Made by a program: the position numbers and the translations under genes. Shown here piece by piece: positions 505-22,505 of a stretch of DNA of 23,513 nucleotides (within the stretch, counting starts at the first letter, position 1; every line of letters begins with the position of its first letter). Source of the stretch: a virus; the IMG/VR virus record IMGVR_UViG_3300037961_003157, positions 1 through 23,513 of that record. One strand, given 5' to 3'. The notes under the pieces were generated by a model. It worked only from the letters and a program-made list of their open reading frames with translations. It had not been told where the DNA came from and did no database searches.

Positions 505-786
505 TTAGATCTCTGATCTAGCGAGGCCATTTTGACCCACCCCCATGGGGGATGCGGCCTGCTTGCTCGTATAAATATAGCCTTGAGACATTTCTGCCAT
601 TTTTTGAAGGGCTTCACGCTCCCGCTGATACGGCTTTGTCGAACGAAACTCGACATAATCACGGAAATACGCTGGCATGTACTCATGTACAGCCAGACAA
701 GACATCAAACTAGGCGTATTAGCTGTACAAATAGAAACAAACAAGCCTAAAGACTGGATAAAGCTTGTGACACTAACGGGAAACAT
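505..786 (-). CDS. Hypothetical protein, last gene of the late region
   Basis: This is a 93-residue protein that I do not recognise confidently. It starts at an ATG inside the 3' end of thyX (40-nt overlap) and ends just before the intergenic region. The N-terminal 35 residues are rather hydrophobic with two cysteines (FIQSLGLFVSICTA), possibly a signal peptide or membrane anchor. The rest is polar with a short charged helix (PYQREREALQKMAEMSQ, residues 52-68). A second in-frame ATG at 678 would give a soluble 57-residue protein beginning MPAYFRDY and avoid the overlap. No clear Shine-Dalgarno precedes either start. The orderly composition and the co-orientation with thyX favour a real gene. 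Function is unknown. Confidence 0.6.
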   Translation of the reverse strand: MFPVSVTSFIQSLGLFVSICTANTPSLMSCLAVHEYMPAYFRDYVEFRSTKPYQREREALQKMAEMSQGYIYTSKQAASPMGVGQNGLARSEI

Positions 787-1379
787 TGTTCGATCAGCAA
801 ACGACAGTCATCAGCAATATCACGATGTTCCTTCTGTGTACCATTACCACAACGCAGGTCACAGTAATGAATCCAAGACCTCAAAGTACCATTCATGTAC
901 AACTTGGTCGGAGCAGATAGAGGCAAGACCTCACGTGCACATTCTTTAGCAATACCAGCTTCAAGCATTTCGTTGTACAAGCTATACGACAGGTCATAAA
1001 CCTGCTGAGCTTTAATTTGAAAGTCTTGAGTGGTGTAGGCATCAACATCATCAATACTTGACTGTCGATTCGTAGAATCTTGACGACGAACAACCAAGGC
1101 TTCAGGTTTAGCGGTTACCCCGGCATAACGCTGGGAAAACTCTTGGAAACTAAAGCTACGATGACGAAGTATTTGAGTAGAAATACTACGAGTAGTGTTG
1201 ATTTCTACGCACATGTTCACCATTTCAAAGGGTGACCAATGCTTATGTTTAATAAGGTATTTAATCAGCCTTGCACTGGTCTCAGTGTTGTTCTGATTAG
1301 AGGGATTAGACACCCTAGCCATATAAGCTACGAGGTCATCACCATTAGGTGTTGAATGAATTAAGTTGACGGATGACAT
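747..1379 (-). CDS. thyX: Flavin-dependent thymidylate synthase ThyX
   Basis: This 210-residue protein makes dTMP from dUMP using methylene-tetrahydrofolate, FAD and NADPH, supplying thymidine for phage DNA synthesis. The diagnostic ThyX motif RHRxxSxxxxSxR is present as RHRSFSFQEFSQR at residues 72-84. The C-terminal block is also typical: LPLSAPTKLYMNGTLRSW, then RCGNGTQKEHRDIA. Length fits the roughly 210-250 residues of the family. It starts at ATG with no visible Shine-Dalgarno. It sits alone after the large terminase, separated by tandem hairpins and an AT-rich leader, so it may form a separate unit with the small gene that overlaps its 3' end. Its place at the end of the late module, rather than beside replication genes, is worth noting. 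Confidence 0.97.
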   Translation of the reverse strand: MSSVNLIHSTPNGDDLVAYMARVSNPSNQNNTETSARLIKYLIKHKHWSPFEMVNMCVEINTTRSISTQILRHRSFSFQEFSQRYAGVTAKPEALVVRRQDSTNRQSSIDDVDAYTTQDFQIKAQQVYDLSYSLYNEMLEAGIAKECAREVLPLSAPTKLYMNGTLRSWIHYCDLRCGNGTQKEHRDIADDCRLLIEQCFPLVSQALSSL

Positions 1380-7535: not shown

Positions 7536-10310
7536 TTAATTGCTTGTAATGCCATACACGACAATGTTAATAAAGCCGCTGTTACCGTTAGTGCCATCAT
7601 CTTTAATAGTTTCAACAGTAAATGAAGCTTGATTAGAACTAACTGTTGCACTGCCTACTTTAGTCATTGGCTGAGAAGAAGTTGCTACTACACAAAAATC
7701 ATTACTAGATGCAAACTCAAGATCACTATCTAATGTAACTGTGTAATTACCAGTAGAGTTTCTAACAATACTAGCAATGTTATTTGACTGTCTAATAAGT
7801 TCTGCACTGCCACTATAACGTGCCCATGCTATTGCACCGAGCGCTTGCCAGTCATTACTGCTGCGGACAGTGGTTTTAGTTCTTATAACACCAGTAGTCT
7901 TGTTTACGTGTACTGAGCCTTTACCGCGTCCAGACCCAGGGGTTGATGTACTTTTTTCAAGTACAAGTTCATTAACATTGACTGTGTTTGTGTAACCCCT
8001 AATATCAGGCTGTTCAAATCTGAGATTATCATTAGTGCTGTCAAGAGCGGGACCAGTTCTTGTAGTTGCACTACGAATTTGAACACCGCGAAAAGCGCCA
8101 AAGTATTGCGCACTAGAACCAGTAGCACTGACGATTTTTTCAGGACCATCGACAACAGTCAGATTGCTGCAGTTGATAGCGTCGAAACAACTACTTACAA
8201 TCTTAAATACATTCTCAGTAAGCGGAGAAGATCCACCAAAACCTGTTACTTGGATATTAGAAAAACTAACATTACGGCAACCATTGTGAAGGTGAATCAA
8301 GCCAACGTCACCGGTACTACCTGGACCGGAAGCTCCAAACGCACTGGCTTGTACGTAACCATCAACATCAGACAGAGCAGTGTCGTTTCTTCCGTCGTTA
8401 AAAGTGATGTTGCTAACTAAGACACCATCATAATTACCGACTTCAAAACAACGCTCAGGGTTTTTAGTGGCTGCGGTAAAGTTGTTGTTGGAGTCACGTT
8501 CGTAGTAGCTAAAAGTGGCAGGCGCAATAATCTGAACATTGCTGACAGAGATATTACGAGCCATTGGAGAAATACCGTCAGTACACACAACCTCTTGATC
8601 GGTGCCTGCGCCGAGAGTGACAGTGCCTGACGTATCATTTAGAAGATGATGAAAAGCATTGGTTCCGGTTCCTGAAATAGGTCCTTCCCAGCCTGTGTGA
8701 TGAATTTCAATTGGCTCAGAGCAGTTGATAATCCTGCAGGCGTCGATCATGATGTTGTAGGGAGCCGGGAAGTATTCATGAGCTTTAACCTCAATACCCG
8801 ACATACACTTGATCGCAACCGAGTTAGTTAGGATAATGTTTCGAGAACCATCATCAATCTCAAAACCATTGTTATTACCTCCTCCGGTATCACTGTAACC
8901 TCCATGCGGGCTTTCAGATCTACAGCCAGTAATTAGTACATCAGAACAATAGTGAGTCGTTAAGTTATCGTCTCCAGCACCTTTAAAATAACAGTTTTCA
9001 ATAGTAATGTACTGAGCACCGAAAACTTCTGTACCGCTGATATTGGGCAGTACAGGCATCTGAAGCCACTTTTGTTGCGTTGTAAGAGAATCTAGGTTCT
9101 TTTTAATTGGTGTAGAAATATCTAAGCAATGTCGAAAGCCATCAAGGAAACGGCAGTTGCGCATCGTGATGTACTTAGCATTTGCGATAGTGCAAGCATT
9201 CTTTTTATAGGCATCGTCTTGACTTGACTGTGTTCCTGAAACTGAATCCCTTCGATCATCATTAAAGTCGAAAGTGATGTTTTCAATTAAAACACGTTCA
9301 ACTGGTGATATTGCATTAGCAGTACCAACAGTAGACTTACCAACGTTTGCTACTGACCAACTTCGGTGAGTACTGGCAGGCATGGTAATAGTTACATCAC
9401 CTTCACCACGGATAATTGTGTCGCTTTGATCAAAAATAATTGTTTGGGAAACAGAGTAAGTACCTTTTGGAAAGATCAAAGTCTTACCAGCTGCTGCTGC
9501 AATAGCAGCTGTAATGGCTGAATAGTCATCAGTAGAACCATTACCCGTAGCACCAAAATCTTTTACCGAAAAAACTTCTTTTAATTTTGTATAGACATTA
9601 CGTGCAACAGCACCAGTGCCGTCCTGAGTGAAGTCGCTAAGGGTTCCAGCCGGACCTTGAGGACCTGTTGCACCTTGAGGGCCTTGAGCACCTGTTGCAC
9701 CTGTTGCACCAGTGTTCCCTTGAGGTCCCTGAGGACCAGTTGCACCCTGTGCACCAGTGGCACCTTGAGGACCTTGGGCTCCAGTAGCCCCCTGGGGACC
9801 GGTAGCTCCATCAGCGCCATCAGCGCCATCTGCACCGTCTGCACCTGCTGGGCCTTGTGCTCCTGTTGGACCTGCAGGGCCAGTAGAGCCGGTAGCTCCC
9901 GTTGCACCTGTTGGACCAGCCGGACCAGCCGGACCTTGAGGACCCGTGTCACCTTGAGGACCTCTCTCTCCCACAGTGTTGTTATCTAGTTCTTGCTGAC
10001 GAAAAACTACTTGTTCAAAGTTGTCGTTAATACTGCTGGCACTAATAAAAGATCCAGTGTAGAAGTTGTTTCGTGGACCTGAATCAATATCAGTATCACG
10101 ATAGATCTTGATGGCTGCTCCCGTTGCTGGGATATGACCAGTCAAAAATCGAATAGAGGTGGCAGTGTCAAATTCGTAGTGAGTGTCTTCAGTTTTTACG
10201 ACGTCGTCAACAGAAACCTTGACGTCCGCCTGCAAAATGTATGGAAAGGTGAATGTAAAAGATGGACCGTTGCTATTTGATTTTGTATACGAATTTTCAG
10301 TTGTTGCCAT
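7536..10310 (-). CDS. Tail fiber with collagen-like stalk and pectate-lyase-like beta-helix
   Basis: This is a 924-residue receptor-binding protein. Residues 1-112 are a T7 gp17-type anchor ([18 protein letters not shown], then [14 protein letters not shown]). Residues 114-221 are 36 uninterrupted Gly-X-Y triplets, a collagen-like stalk that would trimerise. From about 246 ([20 protein letters not shown]) begins a right-handed beta-helix of the pectate lyase superfamily, with many N-x-x-I/V rungs such as NISVSNVQI. The last 100 residues or so form a beta-rich tip ([17 protein letters not shown]). Such beta-helices often bind or cut surface polysaccharide, but no catalytic residues can be assigned by eye. 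A good Shine-Dalgarno (AAGGA) lies 5 nt before the ATG. It follows the other fiber gene by 20 nt. Confidence 0.93.
9648..9971 (-). repeat. Collagen-like Gly-X-Y repeat region
   Basis: 36 consecutive Gly-X-Y codon triplets lie within the fiber gene, dominated by [12 protein letters not shown] and a four-fold GAD run. At DNA level this is a 9-bp-periodic array with near-identical blocks, so in-frame expansion or contraction by slippage or recombination is likely. Confidence 0.95.
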
Positions 10311-10330: not shown

Positions 10331-11377
10331 TTAGTATTTAATACAAGCAAGAAGAGCAACGTTGCGCGGACGCGCCTCAGAACCGCCATCGGTTGTCATC
10401 GTAGTTGTAACAGTTATTCCGGTTGTAGCACTGCTGGTGTTGAAATTCTGCTCTCTAACACGTTCATCAGGAGCACCACCATCATCAGTGTGACCACCGA
10501 TGTCTCTCGCAGCTGACACACCGTGGTTGTGCCCAGGATCAGTGACAGTTGATGTTGCTGTGTGGTCATGTTGTCTATTTTGATCACCTTGTGCAGTGCC
10601 AACAGCACGATTATTATCTACACCACGGCCGTCATCAAGACCACGAATAAACTCACCACGAAGATCAGGTAGAGTTGCACCAACCAGTGCGTAAAGAGCA
10701 GCAAAGTTAGCAGTAACACCTTGTACTGTTCCAGAACCATTCGGAATGGTGTCGCCATTACACTTCAAATAACCAGAAGGTATAGAAGAGGCGGCAAAAT
10801 GAAAAACAGCACCAGTAGGTACAAACCCGTTATTACCAAAGACTTTAGCTTCAGTGATTACATTATCATCAATATCATTTGTACCGATAGTAGAAGATGA
10901 TGCACTTGTAAGTCGACCCTGCTGATTAACAGTAATATCAGCAAGTGTATAACTACCAGGGACTACTGAAGTGTGTGAAAGTTTATTATCTGTTACAGAA
11001 TCATCAGCAAGTTTGACAGTCACTAATGAACCATCAGCAACATCACCGGCAGTGAGGCTTGAAATATTTCCCTTTAGTTCTTGTGCGATATAAAGGAATC
11101 TGTTTACCGCATCGTTCAAGTCATCAGCCTTGATTGAGCTACCAGTATTAAAGACGATCTTATTGTTAGAGTCGTCAGTAACTCGGTAGATACGGATTTC
11201 TACACCGTTACCTGGAGCAGAGTTGAAACGCAGGGTGGTTGCGTTAATTAGTGAAAATGCTGTTGTACCTATATCGTCAAGTGATACTCGAACATCGGCA
11301 ACAGCAAGGTATGGAAAAGTTAGGGTGTAGTCAGTAGTACTGCCATCCCCTGTGTATGTGTTTTGTGTTGTTGCCAT
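10331..11377 (-). CDS. Tail fiber/collar protein with T7-type anchor and tail-collar domain
   Basis: This 348-residue fiber starts with the same kind of T7 gp17 N-terminal anchor as its neighbour (residues 1-102: [20 protein letters not shown], then [16 protein letters not shown]). A middle region of repeated [12 protein letters not shown]-like strands (110-180) follows. It ends in a phage tail-collar domain (about 186-348): [43 protein letters not shown], and the terminal [14 protein letters not shown]. Two His-x-His motifs (QHDHT 269-273, GHNHG 282-286) resemble metal-binding motifs in T4 fiber tips. Its ATG overlaps the upstream stop by one base (TAATG). It is probably a second, shorter receptor-binding or adaptor fiber on the same tail. 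Confidence 0.92.
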
Positions 11378-14300
11378 TATTTGTAGATTCCAAGTACGGT
11401 ATTGATCTGATCTGTGTCACCACGTTCTGAGAACTCAGCGACAGCATCTTGACGGTACTGCTGCATACGAATCTCTTCTGCATCAGTAAGCTGGGATTCA
11501 GCACGCTTACGTGCCTGCATCAGTGCCGCGTTAATTTGTCCATGCAGATTGTTCCACCTACGGTGGTCAACAATGCCATTAGACGCAGCCTGTGCTTCTC
11601 GGTAGGATTTAACAAAGTCTTTGTTGTCGTTCATAATCCTTTGCAGATCACGAGCAAACTCACCTTGGGTACCCATAATTTCATATAGTTCTGCACGCTG
11701 TGCAGGCGTGTACTCAACACCACGACCATTGGTCAGCATTGAAGGACGAGAGTCAAACTCCACATCAATCAAGAACTGCTCAAGATCAGTCTGTCCTCCA
11801 TACACCTTCCAAGGACTAACAGCATTCCAAATACGATGGAAGAAGTTAGAAGGCTCATTGACCTTTTTACCTGTAATCCAGCTGTACTGGACAGCTAGGT
11901 CTCCTTTAGCAATAGGGTTCCGGTTAGCAATTAGATGATAGACGTCCTGTTCAACGACACGTAGTTCCGGGTGAATCAGACGTGCCATCTCATTACGCAT
12001 ACCAGACAGTGGTATGGCGGAGCTGCCAAAGCTTGCAGCCCACCGGGAGGCAGCTGCAGGGTTACCAGAGGTAATATCAAACAGAGGCTCAAGACCAGAC
12101 ATAAACGACTTACTGGTCAGGTGCGCACTCAACAGAAAGCCAAGGCGGTTGAAGGTGGTCTCTAGGTCATGACCGTCAAGAGAACCAAAGTTATCCATGA
12201 CGTCAGCAGTGACAGCTAGCCAGTCAGTGATTGCACCGAGGTTGTCGTAGCTGTACCAGTTACCATCTAGACCCATATAAGTCCTAGGCTTAAAGTTAGC
12301 CTCACGACGGACACTGTTTGTCTGCGTATCAAAGTGACCAGTACCACGCAGTCTGCCAGCAGTAAACATGGCTCCAGCACCTAACACCGCAAGGGTGCCG
12401 ATAGCTTTACGACCACGGATCTCTGCACGCAGCGTGTCAAAACGCTGGTCGGCATACTCGTCTACAGGAATACCTTTGGACTGAAGAATTTCACTAATCT
12501 CCTGGCGTGTGAATGCATGACGAGGCTTAAAGGCAATCTTGTTGTAGTCCCGTACAAACATACTGAATGGACTGTGCGTATCAGTGAAACGCATAACATT
12601 CAGGGATGTCTTAGGGAACATCAGGAATGGCTTAAGACCAGGTGCTCGGCTCAACATGTCACCCAGAGCATTAACAGCTGGTGTATCCATGTTCATGGCA
12701 ATCTCTTTGGAAGCAAAAGAAACTGCTTCGTCAGTGACCTTACCGGTCTCATCAAACATCTTTTTATAGACTTCCTGTCGGATAGCCTGTGCACCAGCTT
12801 CGTCTAATGCCTTTGTGCCGTTGAGGGTGACTCGGTCAAATGCAGCACCACGTGCCTCAATGTTTGCAATCACGGAGTTAGTGAATCCGTCGAATGCAGC
12901 CATAGCATTCATGCCAAACTTAAGCAGTGGATGATTAGCCAAGTCATTCATTGCTTCAATGTGCTGATACATAACCATTGGACCTAGGTCACCGTTATCT
13001 TCAGCACTCTCAGCAAAGGCCTTATACAAGGTCAAAGCTTCATCATTCTTGCGTTGGAAGTCACTCTTATATAACCAGTCAACCTGACTTGGATCCTGTG
13101 AGGCACGGCGGAACACTTGTCCCATATACTTACCGGCTTGACCAAACGTCTCAGCAATAGCCTGGTACTGGTAGAAACCACGACGTAACGTCCGAGTATC
13201 ACCAGCAGATAGTGCGCCAGCAAACGTTGCAAGCGGACGTTCAACCAACAATGCAATGTTGCTAGCCCCTGCTTTGAGGGGTGTAGACACAGCAGACAAG
13301 ACAGAGTTGTAGATGTTTGACCAGACACCCTGCATAACCAATGAAGGGATCTGAGGGTTATTATCGATGAATGCTTTACTGATAGTTCCGCTACTTTCAC
13401 GGATCCATTCATTCAAAGAACCAATGGTGCGTACGTTGCCATCAGTGACTTCATAAGCAAGCATTAACGGTCCAAGCATCTCAGGCCGTTCCTTTTGTAC
13501 AGCACGTAAAGACGAAAGGATCTCGTTTGTCTCCTCAGTGACTTTGTTAAAACGTTTAAGTGTCTCTTCACGAGCTGATTCGACAGCATCCTTAGTACCT
13601 TTAGGTCCGAGCTGCCTAGCAGCACGCTTAGCCATGTTGAGGATTCCAAGACCACGACCAGATACATAACTACGTTGTGCTTTCTGAACCATCAGATATG
13701 CAAGACGATCTAGGATCTGTTCCTGTGCAGCAGCAACAGCTCCTGTGTCTTCCATCAAACGCATACCTTCAGCCATATCAGAAACCTGACCTGCAAATGA
13801 TGTATCTACATAGGCCTGAGCCTTCATTAGATCCATATTTGCGAAGTCATCCATGTATTGCTTGATGGTTTTCATGACGCCGCGGTAAGCACCACCACTA
13901 AGAACGTTGACGCCTTCGAGTCGGTCAGTCTTGAACTCATCCAAGATACGCTTGAGATCAGGCACAGACTTGCCGTACAAGTCAGCTGCTAATGCTTCAC
14001 CAGCATCATCGATTTCTTTGAAGGAGATGTATCCATCAGCTGTGTTATAGCCGTACTTACCTGCTTTCTTCAGCTCATCAGTCAGACCACGGAGAATCTG
14101 GAACCCATTTTCACCACCACTGGTGCTCCACTTGAGCATCCCGTCAGTCATTACACTGCCTAGACGTCCGAAGCTGGAGTCAAGGTTCTTATTTACACGT
14201 ACAAGCTGGACGCTGGCATCAATGATCCCAAGATCATCAGCAGAACGTACGCCGCTCTCTTCATAGCCGTAAAGGTCATGAACACCCTTCTGAGGTGTGG

Positions 14301-18875: not shown

Positions 18876-21672
18876 GCTTGTAGTAACTTGGGTTGTAATC
18901 ACCCTCCCAAGTCAGTGAAGTAAGAGTTGCTGGGAGTGGAGAAGTAGATTTAATTGATAAGGTAAAGTTATCACTCTTTTCATACACAGGTACATAAGCA
19001 GCATATGTATCTTCTATACTTACATCACCAGCTTGATAGCTATCAAAAGTGGTAGATGAGAATTCCTGAGAGAACTTAGGCTTACCTACACGGGTCAACT
19101 CGGTCTCATACACACCAACACGACTAAAGATAAGATTGACACGATGGATTGTTAGTGAACCACGTTGTTCGTTGATAGTGACATTCCCAGCCTTTGTCTG
19201 AACAAAGAACCTAGGTAGGTCAACCTGCATCGTGTAGTCATAACCAAAGTTAAGCTCAACGCCATTCCATTTACCAGGCACAGTGACAGTAGTACCAGTA
19301 TTAGGTACATCAATTCCTGTGATAATCGATCCATCTGTACCTCCTTTGACTGCTGTCAGGTTTGGTTTTTTGTCTGTGATGCTGGATAACCAGCTAAGAG
19401 TAAAGGTTGTTTTATTGGTAGCAGCGTCGTACGCTCCTCCAGTAGCTGGAGAATAGTTATCAAGATGTACTAAGTAAGTATCGTTATTTTCAGCAAAGCT
19501 AAGTGCATCGTCACGGATCAAATCAATCTTTTGAAGAAAGAACTGATCATCAACGAAGAAGTAGGTGTCGTCAGTAACGCAATGGTATTTGATTGGACGT
19601 CTATGTTCCCATCTAAACCAGGCGGACTGAAGCTGACGTTCGGCAGAAAAGAAGTATCTATAACCAAATACTTCCTTACTATCACGCTTACCAAGAAAAA
19701 CAAAGCTGTTCTCCCTAGAGTTAGCCATCATATCAAGATCATTGGCTAGCTTACGTGAAACAACTTTGCTAAGTTCGTTGATAGCAGGCTCACCTTCACG
19801 TGCAACATTAGCCATTGCAAAGAAGCGAGAGAAGGCACCAGCGTTGTCTACAAAACCAGCAATCACACCCATCGAAATAGGAGGCAGTTTGGCGTTGTAG
19901 CTATACGTAGAGACGCTGCCTAGCTTGGCTGATTCTGGCTGAAGGACGTCACTGTCGGTGGCTAGTAAGAACTGCTGGTTCTTTGCAAAGACAATCAAAC
20001 CTGTGTTCTGTTCCAGGCCGTCAAATAACTCAGATGGATAAGTAGAGCTACAAGAGATGTCAATAGGATCATCTGCCGCAACAGTCAGGGCTGTCTTAAC
20101 AAAGAAGTTACCAAGGTCCCCAGGACGTGAAAGTACGACGTTGTCTCCACTGAGAACAACAAGTCGATTCCTAAAGAACAAGACTTTATTGATCTTGGCA
20201 TCTACGAAACTAGGTTCCGGGTTGGTATTTTCATCGCCAACCTCGCGGTCCCCATAAGTAAATTGCTTTACATTAAAGTTACCGTTTGCCGTACGTTGAA
20301 TAACGATCGGCATTGTTGTCTCATTTAGCTTCTTTTTTATACCAGGCTTCGCGCATTCAGACCAACTACCAGGTCCATCGGATCCTCCATCACCTTCGAA
20401 TTTAAGATAGTAGTCATCTTCATTACTCGATGAGTTAGAAACTTTGAGGATGTAGCCATTTTTTGACTGGAACGGTAAGTTAGTTACATCGTTGGTTGAC
20501 TCAGTAACAACAGTCAGAAGGTCTGTGTTTGGTGTGGTGACAGTAAAATCCTGAGTATTGCTATAAAGATAAAGCCCATTACCGATGATTTCTGAGCTAA
20601 TACCACTAGGCAAATCGCCCTGAATACCACCCAGGATAGAGTCAACACTTACTGATGTCTGTTGATCAAAAGATGTCGGTGAAGGACGAACTGCTGCTAA
20701 TGATGCTTTGATTGTTGCTGTCTCAGCTTGATCAATAACAATAGGATAAGTCTTATCTTCTAGTGTGACATTAAAAGTATCACCTTCAAGCCAGCCTTCA
20801 CCACCATGTAGGAGGTCTATCTCACATTTGTAACTACATGTGTATTCATTAGCGTCGTCCAAATTCGATTGACCAGGCACTGGTCCTTGCTGACCAGTAA
20901 CGGTAAGTCTAAAAATTAGATTATTTCTGCCAGTGACACTACTGCCATTATTAGTTACTGTACCATTAAAATTGTAATTAGTATTAGCCGTTCCAGAACT
21001 AATAGTAAATACTTTCGTACCAATGTGAGGGCAATGTCCCCTATTACCACTGAAGGTTGTATAACCTTGACCAGTAGGATTAGCACTGACAAAAGTAGCG
21101 CTGCTTATCTGTGTAGTTGCACTAGAAGCTGGGTCATGAATGTTCAACGCATACTGACGGCCATTGACAACCTGTTTTACTTCAACAAAGGCAACATAGG
21201 TATGGGGATTTTCGGGTGTCTTGTGTGCAGATGTCGGGTGCATCTCAACCGTCTTCTTACGGTTGCAGGCAAACGTAGAGTCATTGATAGTCGTGAACTG
21301 AAGATCACCAGCAGCGGGTGAGCCGTGAGCCAAGTAAGCCTTCAGGTCGGTTTCTTGACCAGACTCGTAGGTGACTGTGATCGCATTTCCGGTCTCGCAG
21401 CTCCACATGTTGACGCTGCCATCTGTCTGAATTTGACCGATGTAGCTACCTTCAGTTTCATCACGGTAGTAGTGGAACCAATGTGTAGAAGTCGTGGCAC
21501 CAGCAAGTGCTGATGCACCAACTCTCTTAGCACCAGGTCGTTTATACAGACCCCTGGTTAGGTCTGGGATGCAGTTGACAGCATCTCGTACTTGACCCTG
21601 ACCTTTGTATTGATCCGGAGCTTCGTTGATGCCACCGAAGAAGTCAGGGATTCTTTGTGTAATTGCACTCAT
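18868..21672 (-). CDS. Tail tubular protein B (T7 gp12-like, tail nozzle)
   Basis: This 934-residue protein forms the distal tail nozzle through which DNA leaves. The N-terminus is typical of the family: RIPDFFGGINEAPDQYKGQG, then VRDAVNCIPDLTRGLYKRPG (residues 28-47). The C-terminus (YVPVYEKSDNFTLSIKST, then LTSLTWEGDYNPSYYKRV) is also characteristic of cyanopodovirus members. It is longer than T7 gp12 (794), consistent with larger surface insertions in the beta-rich middle. Its ATG overlaps the stop of tail tube A by one base (TGATG), and its end overlaps the gp13-like gene by 8 nt. Confidence 0.95.
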   Translation of the reverse strand: MSAITQRIPDFFGGINEAPDQYKGQGQVRDAVNCIPDLTRGLYKRPGAKRVGASALAGATTSTHWFHYYRDETEGSYIGQIQTDGSVNMWSCETGNAITVTYESGQETDLKAYLAHGSPAAGDLQFTTINDSTFACNRKKTVEMHPTSAHKTPENPHTYVAFVEVKQVVNGRQYALNIHDPASSATTQISSATFVSANPTGQGYTTFSGNRGHCPHIGTKVFTISSGTANTNYNFNGTVTNNGSSVTGRNNLIFRLTVTGQQGPVPGQSNLDDANEYTCSYKCEIDLLHGGEGWLEGDTFNVTLEDKTYPIVIDQAETATIKASLAAVRPSPTSFDQQTSVSVDSILGGIQGDLPSGISSEIIGNGLYLYSNTQDFTVTTPNTDLLTVVTESTNDVTNLPFQSKNGYILKVSNSSSNEDDYYLKFEGDGGSDGPGSWSECAKPGIKKKLNETTMPIVIQRTANGNFNVKQFTYGDREVGDENTNPEPSFVDAKINKVLFFRNRLVVLSGDNVVLSRPGDLGNFFVKTALTVAADDPIDISCSSTYPSELFDGLEQNTGLIVFAKNQQFLLATDSDVLQPESAKLGSVSTYSYNAKLPPISMGVIAGFVDNAGAFSRFFAMANVAREGEPAINELSKVVSRKLANDLDMMANSRENSFVFLGKRDSKEVFGYRYFFSAERQLQSAWFRWEHRRPIKYHCVTDDTYFFVDDQFFLQKIDLIRDDALSFAENNDTYLVHLDNYSPATGGAYDAATNKTTFTLSWLSSITDKKPNLTAVKGGTDGSIITGIDVPNTGTTVTVPGKWNGVELNFGYDYTMQVDLPRFFVQTKAGNVTINEQRGSLTIHRVNLIFSRVGVYETELTRVGKPKFSQEFSSTTFDSYQAGDVSIEDTYAAYVPVYEKSDNFTLSIKSTSPLPATLTSLTWEGDYNPSYYKRV

Positions 21673-22505
21673 CAGCGACGAAGTCCTAGATACGGAAGAT
21701 AGGTTTGATATGAGGTGTCATCACCAAGACCCATATAGTTATGGTCACCTTGGTTGCACTCGTACTCCATGCAGATTGCCCTTGTATAGGCTTCCTGTTG
21801 TTGAAGCAACTGAACCAACGTAGGGTTAGAAACAAGCTGCGTAGCAGCCCTTACAGAAGCCTTCTGGACGATGTAGCGCTTAAAGACCTGGGGTAGATCT
21901 TCAAACGGCCAAAGATAAACAACATCACAACTCACCTTGTCAGTAAACTGATCACTATGTTTGATCTTGTCGTACAGGTATGCACCACGCTTGACTACGT
22001 TAGTAGTACGAACGTGGAAATCATCATGCACATCTAAACGCAGCACGTTGGATGGAATAGGAATCTTGTTATTAACAGGAGAGAACTCCACGTGTGATTC
22101 GGTGTTATACACCCAACCCTCGCTTTGTACTTCCATGTTAGTTTCCTTTAGAAGCTGCAAAATAAATGCAACCTCAGGGTTAGCCAAGGTGTTGTAGGTC
22201 TCCACCTTCTTTGTAATCAGGACTTTTGCCTGATTGATTGGTGCTGTAGTAAAAACAATGTTGCCAGAACTCACGACATAATCAGTAGCTGCAACACCAT
22301 TTACTGTTACAGAGATCTGGGAAGGAGAGTCATAGCTGTAGCCGATAGCAAAGGTCTGGTTAGAGCCGTTGCCGGTCAATTCTGTTTCCGCTTCAGTTTC
22401 AAGGTTTGCACCAAGAGTAGTGACTGGGGACTGACCAATGCTCCCCAAAATTGAGTTTACTGCGGATAGTTCGGTATCGAGATCAATAGTAGTAGGAGCA
22501 GGCAT
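21672..22505 (-). CDS. Tail tubular protein A (T7 gp11-like gatekeeper) with an inserted domain
   Basis: This 277-residue protein links the portal to the nozzle. Residues 11-36 (TELSAVNSILGSIGQSPVTT) and 108-277 (VQSEGWVYNTE, KRGAYLYDKIKHSDQF, LPQVFKRYIVQKASVRAATQ, AICMEYECNQGDHN) match the T7 gp11 pattern. T7 gp11 is 196 residues; the extra 80 or so lie mainly at 41-103, where TGNGSNQTFAIGYSY, SQISVTVNGV and NIVFTTAPINQAKVLITKK resemble the fiber anchor domain encoded downstream. The ATG follows the terminator's T-tract by 6 nt and has no usual Shine-Dalgarno. Confidence 0.94.
   Translation of the reverse strand: MPAPTTIDLDTELSAVNSILGSIGQSPVTTLGANLETEAETELTGNGSNQTFAIGYSYDSPSQISVTVNGVAATDYVVSSGNIVFTTAPINQAKVLITKKVETYNTLANPEVAFILQLLKETNMEVQSEGWVYNTESHVEFSPVNNKIPIPSNVLRLDVHDDFHVRTTNVVKRGAYLYDKIKHSDQFTDKVSCDVVYLWPFEDLPQVFKRYIVQKASVRAATQLVSNPTLVQLLQQQEAYTRAICMEYECNQGDHNYMGLGDDTSYQTYLPYLGLRR

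Follow-up and report, generated by a model that had tools for sequence, protein, structure and literature searches.

What does a spare copy of a fibre-anchor domain do inside a head-tail ring protein? The question is raised by the window, the whole stretch of 23,513 nucleotides analysed here, which belongs to a marine cyanophage whose tail adaptor (tail tubular protein A, the homologue of T7 gp11) contains such a copy. The joint between adaptor, nozzle and fibres is where receptor binding leads to tail opening and where 12-fold symmetry steps to 6-fold. The 277-aa product of the adaptor gene matches PF17212 (Tube) in two stretches (E=8.6e-35; 120.6 bits against a cut-off of 22.3) and PHROG 446 (E=4.9e-54), and its full-length AF2 model (pLDDT 78), with a four-helix bundle and a fibre dock, resembles the solved T7, P-SCSP1u and KP32 adaptors. 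Among the PDB matches of this model, adaptors came best, followed by fibre anchors. The features on which the argument rests, all on the minus strand, are these:

21672..22505, minus strand: tail adaptor gene, 277 aa (PF17212, PHROG 446, AF2 full-length model).
22440..22481, minus strand: adaptor helix alpha1, residues 9-22 (AF2 full-length model; T7 gp11 alignment).
22185..22400, minus strand: inserted fibre-anchor-like jelly-roll domain, residues 36-107, with the homologous core at 41-103 (alignment, profiles, AF2, Foldseek).
22122..22178, minus strand: adaptor helix alpha2, residues 110-128; from the T7 A36 equivalent onwards the adaptor core continues (T7 alignment; AF2).
21915..22103, minus strand: the adaptor's own fibre-dock beta-domain, residues ~135-197, separate from the insert (AF2 strands; T7 gp11 layout, PMC6702177).
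18868..21672, minus strand: nozzle (tail tubular protein B, T7 gp12 homologue), 934 aa, the next gene after the adaptor (PF25675, E=5.6e-155).
19078..19083, minus strand: nozzle platform hairpin, residues 864/865, empty in the window (gp12 alignment; maps to P-SCSP1u gp23 736/737).
11048..11377, minus strand: collar fibre N-terminal anchor domain, residues 1-110 of 348 (PF03906, E=6e-17; insert HMM, E=1.6e-12).
9981..10310, minus strand: second fibre N-terminal anchor domain, residues 1-110 of 924 (PF03906, E=1.9e-8).

The two genes that encode these T7-type fibre anchors lie at 10331-11377 and 7536-10310. The second fibre (7536-10310, minus strand) joins its T7-type anchor to a collagen Gly-X-Y stretch and a pectate-lyase-like body (PF01391, PF12708), and the short collar fibre, with an anchor of its own, adjoins it, so that two anchor-bearing fibres are encoded for six docks. 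Elsewhere in the window, an ORF at 747-1379 (minus strand), adjoining a terminase-like gene, resembles by eye a ThyX-type flavin-dependent thymidylate synthase.

The preliminary description of this DNA had claimed that the segment encoded at 22185-22400 is absent from T7 gp11, and pairwise HMMER alignment to the solved T7 protein bears this out. Residues 7-39 of the window protein align with T7 gp11 8-40 and the alignment resumes at A108, the equivalent of T7 A36, which places the extra segment between T7 D35 and A36. The insert thus comprises about 72 residues (~36-107) between adaptor helices alpha1 and alpha2. In the full-length model, alpha1 (9-22) is followed by the insert, alpha2 (110-128), the native fibre-dock strands and alpha3/alpha4; the first and last strands of the insert are long (33-44 and 94-105). 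The size excess over T7 gp11, which had been put at about one domain, proved close to that: it amounts to 81 residues, of which the insert accounts for ~72 and most of the remainder is C-terminal. The same 277-aa protein, 100% identical, was found in three separate metagenome contigs (L001-L003), so the insert is no assembly error. Diverged versions of it occur in L004, L005, L007-L011 and L083-L097. Most pairs tested gave a dN/dS of ~0.06-0.16 (Nei-Gojobori on insert codons), the highest value, up to 0.42, coming from L095/L096, a pair with few synonymous changes; these low ratios indicate that the domain is maintained by purifying selection.

We built a profile from 12 gp11 inserts and no fibres. 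Searched against every ORF in the window and the loci, it matched one gp12-type ORF and fibre N-termini, that of the window collar fibre among them (E=1.6e-12). When aligned by hhalign with 33 fibre N-termini, the profile gave E=6.5e-19 and a probability of 99.1, with insert columns 6-69 paired with fibre 5-69. Profile searches, proposed earlier as a check, therefore link the insert with fibre N-termini, and the resemblance of its strand pattern to collar-fibre residues 9-67 that had been noticed by eye is well above chance. A search of the PDB with the single insert sequence produced no match; the profile found solved fibre N-termini there (23sh_r, 1.1e-5; 9s0y_AB, 6.7e-5; 7y22_e, 7e-4). The window insert scores 18.1-18.5 bits against PF03906, below the cut-off of 25.2, which is exceeded by the insert of the sister locus L008 (26.9) and by a gp12 insert (31.2). 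Judged from these sequence profiles, the window insert is homologous to PF03906, although its own copy scores under the Pfam cut-off. A TIG/Ig identity (PF01833) was considered and rejected: the score was 19.7 bits against a cut-off of 20.9 and no TIG structure stood among the leading fold matches.

The fold leads to the same family. AF2 prediction of the insert alone, from a 12-row alignment, gave a model of six strands with pLDDT 90.2 and pTM 0.76. Since that alignment held no fibre sequences, the evidence from fold and from sequence is largely independent. In a Foldseek search of the PDB, the top ranks were mainly T7-like tail or fibre N-terminal chains, among them 8es4_F (TM 0.81, rmsd 1.4 Å), T7 gp17 (7ey9_b), P-SCSP1u (8i4m_M) and Kp7 (7y22_e), and the TM scores against fibre anchors ranged from 0.76 to 0.81; a viral library returned tail fibres and one 'tail tubular protein B'. 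The structural comparison that had been suggested thus revealed the jelly-roll anchor fold, and an unrelated fold was not seen. Together, the insert profile, hhalign and Foldseek rule out a chance or compositional resemblance. The alpha1-alpha2 loop of the adaptor has received, as a whole, a jelly-roll domain belonging to the family of T7-fibre N-termini. This domain has the jelly-roll fold of PF03906 and lacks two other marks of that family. First, there is no docking helix: the alignment ends at fibre residue 69 and the model consists of strands only, running directly into adaptor alpha2, so that only the jelly-roll half is present. The anchor domain of the collar fibre corresponds to the insert homologue plus this helix, and its absence implies that the insert is unable to dock exactly as a fibre does. 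Second, rather than opening a trimeric fibre or spike at its N-terminus, the insert is internal to the adaptor. As a separate observation, L281 (ORF at 14233) and L282 (ORF at 13291) encode proteins of 159-167 aa consisting of a fibre anchor and ~50 further residues; these ORFs directly precede one of 423-461 aa and are possibly anchor-only adaptors or split fibres.

Is the insert an ordinary feature of the adaptor family? The loop was short in 101 of the 121 unique gp11 proteins sampled, a sample biased towards inserts, and none of 60 evenly spread isolate records had a domain-sized insertion in gp11, which rules this out. The nearest isolate, S-TIP37 (68% identity), has an adaptor of 204 aa without the insert, and of the remaining cyanopodovirus isolates that were examined, S-RIP1 alone had a loop of domain size, holding an unrelated domain. 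Two insert versions searched against 50,697 phage records returned, among the matches listed, fibres, one gp12 and the conserved flank of an insert-less tail tube A, and no relative was found in a scan of genome contigs. On a tree of the gp11 core, insert presence needs 6 changes, at least 4 of them forced by well-supported branches, and by this reconstruction the insert is repeatedly gained or lost. These distributions agree with the earlier expectation that the insert is not common to the family.

The loop also receives other domains. In L007 (3001-3993) a second anchor-like domain is nested within the gp11 insert; the L088 insert has a nested endosialidase-β-barrel-like domain (PF12195, E=4e-5), as does L094 by likeness. 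Unrelated domains occupy the adaptor alpha1-alpha2 loop in S-RIP1, G034/G035 and L039; those of L081 (S-RIP1), L269/L270 and L039 are ~80-95 residues long and could not be assigned with confidence to Pfam or PHROG families. In a tree of the jelly-roll domain itself, built on only 71 columns, the window insert groups with other gp11 inserts and not with the window fibres, which speaks against recent copying from those fibres. The idea of a captured fibre module therefore stands as to fold and family, and needs amending in that the fibres of the window are not the nearest relatives and that the jelly-roll came without its docking helix.

The site of insertion is a well-studied contact. In T7, 12 adaptors are matched to 6 nozzles through the alpha1-alpha2 loop (E26, D35, D39), which rests on the platform of gp12 and alternates between two conformations; the groove formed by adaptor and nozzle provides the surface for the fibres (PMC6702177). 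Each fibre N-terminus of cyanophage P-SCSP1u consists of a jelly-roll together with an α-helix. The helices form a bundle on the adaptor and nozzle, two of the three subunits bind the fibre docks of the adaptor through their jelly-rolls, and there is a bond between nozzle D737 and N24 of the adaptor (PMC10575957). By alignment, N24 corresponds to window T29, and the insert begins 6-8 residues later. On the other side of the contact, the gp12 proteins of G027, G030, G036 and AP013539 (L272, L273, L274 and L259) carry the same domain family in their C-terminal platform hairpin, as a clean insert of ~65-70 residues (~745-808 of ~878). Their relatives, including the window nozzle, have a tight turn at this site (864/865 in the window), aligned by HMMER with P-SCSP1u gp23 736/737, which adjoins D737. 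The adaptor and nozzle insertion sites would then map to facing sides of one contact, as placed by alignments good to within a few residues and by the published contact. In the domain tree, the gp12 inserts lie among fibre domains, across a supported branch from the gp11 inserts, suggesting that the two were captured separately.

We favour, with a probability of about 0.5, the reading that the insert is an interface module beside the fibre dock, which would reinforce or re-angle fibre docking; we prefer it to generic decoration and to a spacer between adaptor and nozzle. In the virion, two-stranded stalks would carry the 12 copies along the seam between adaptor and nozzle. For want of space in the ~40 Å channel, which is unlikely to accommodate twelve domains of 8 kDa, and in view of their neighbours, the copies would point outwards, into the groove where the six fibre trimers dock. 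Each trimer would have a copy on either side, next to the jelly-rolls of the fibres themselves, and the contact area shared by adaptor, nozzle and fibre would be enlarged. The added contact may give a firmer hold on the fibre, a different resting angle or a tuned signal for nozzle opening. The module was probably exchanged among marine podoviruses by recombination, because the joint tolerates such domains, and other lineages would have placed it on the nozzle side of the joint or put different domains in the adaptor loop. The insert is absent from close relatives, and others carry the domain in the tail protein opposite; domain shuffling thus seems to be a way in which phages remodel the joint. 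In its broadest form, which we offer only tentatively as a possibility, marine podoviruses repeatedly moved a fibre docking domain onto the dock itself, into the 12-to-6 loop of the adaptor and, separately, into the facing nozzle hairpin, creating a self-complementing joint with an altered fibre hold and tail-opening signal.

The strongest competitor, though a doubtful one, is that the insert is promiscuous surface decoration, a small beta-domain in tolerant exposed loops that binds weakly to cell surfaces or particles and has no special role in fibre docking. The unrelated domains in the same loop (S-RIP1, G034/G035, L039) and the nested ones (L007, L088, L094) would be expected from it; the former fit a merely tolerant site and count against an interface module. 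The window insert has also diverged faster than the core in its lineage (82% against 94% identity with L004), and shows weak TIG and Shr-like matches. However, the TIG match falls under the Pfam cut-off and the fold search yields fibre anchors, not Ig domains; moreover, what is found is one specific family rather than random beta-domains, and it is present on either face of the joint that serves its relatives as a dock.

A spacer for the symmetry mismatch, by which the insert would pack on the nozzle platform and stabilise or space the 12:6 interface independently of the fibres, we consider unlikely. The insert does lie within the very loop by which T7 matches 12 adaptors to 6 nozzles (PMC6702177), close to the equivalent of nozzle D737, but most relatives achieve the match with a bare short loop and a generic spacer need not be a fibre-anchor homologue. 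Binding of a host receptor by the insert is improbable: Vp0980, a host protein, is a binding partner of TTPA and TTPB in phage OWB (PMC7241545), whereas the homologues of the insert are virion anchors and not receptor binders.

Fibre number bears on two readings. Two anchor-bearing fibre genes are present in the window phage and in those of L007, L088, L090 and L093, insert-bearing contigs of two clades, and a single one in 16 of the 16 isolates checked that lack an adaptor-loop or nozzle insert; exceptions are G010, with an insert and one fibre, and G022 and G038, with two fibres and no insert. The raw association is lost once relatedness is counted: of three independent pairs, 1 pointed in the same direction, 0 in the opposite and 2 showed no difference. 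There is no association with fibre number once kinship is allowed for, which counts against the interface module; fibre number is tied to clade, and a link with a second fibre is unsupported. That the insert is an extra dock allowing a second kind of fibre, the reading suggested by the two-fibre phages and the 16 one-fibre isolates, is accordingly the least credible of all, given the three exceptions and the result from independent pairs.

In the open-licence literature searched, we found no description of such an adaptor insert. It reveals a hot spot for domain insertion in a section of the adaptor core that is generally regarded as fixed. Because the insert in this loop is natural and variable, and because close relatives do without it, the role of the loop can be put to the test. 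The finding further flags 'tail tubular protein A' proteins of nearly 300 aa as overlooked by automatic annotation.

How does the insert compare with known systems? Its closest counterpart is the T7 gp17 anchor, Phage_T7_tail (PF03906; solved in 7ey9, 8i4m, 8es4 and 7y22), with which it shares the jelly-roll fold and homologous sequence; in contrast to that anchor, it is internal to a ring protein rather than the start of a trimeric fibre, and has no C-terminal docking helix. The host protein is an ordinary adaptor of the T7 gp11 type (PF17212, PHROG 446), yet the sequence-matched solved adaptors, of 184-241 residues, have no loop domain of such size aligned, while the window loop holds a 72-residue domain. 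The nozzle insert of uncultured phage MedDCM-OCT-S28-C3 (AP013539) and of G027/G030/G036 belongs to the same domain family and sits at the same tail junction, on gp12 instead of gp11 and probably through a separate capture. Ig-like and other promiscuous domains occur inserted in phage virion proteins, and the Ig-like ones are likewise small beta-domains shuffled among structural genes; the insert described here differs from them in its family, and in that its normal job is at the very joint into which it has been inserted.
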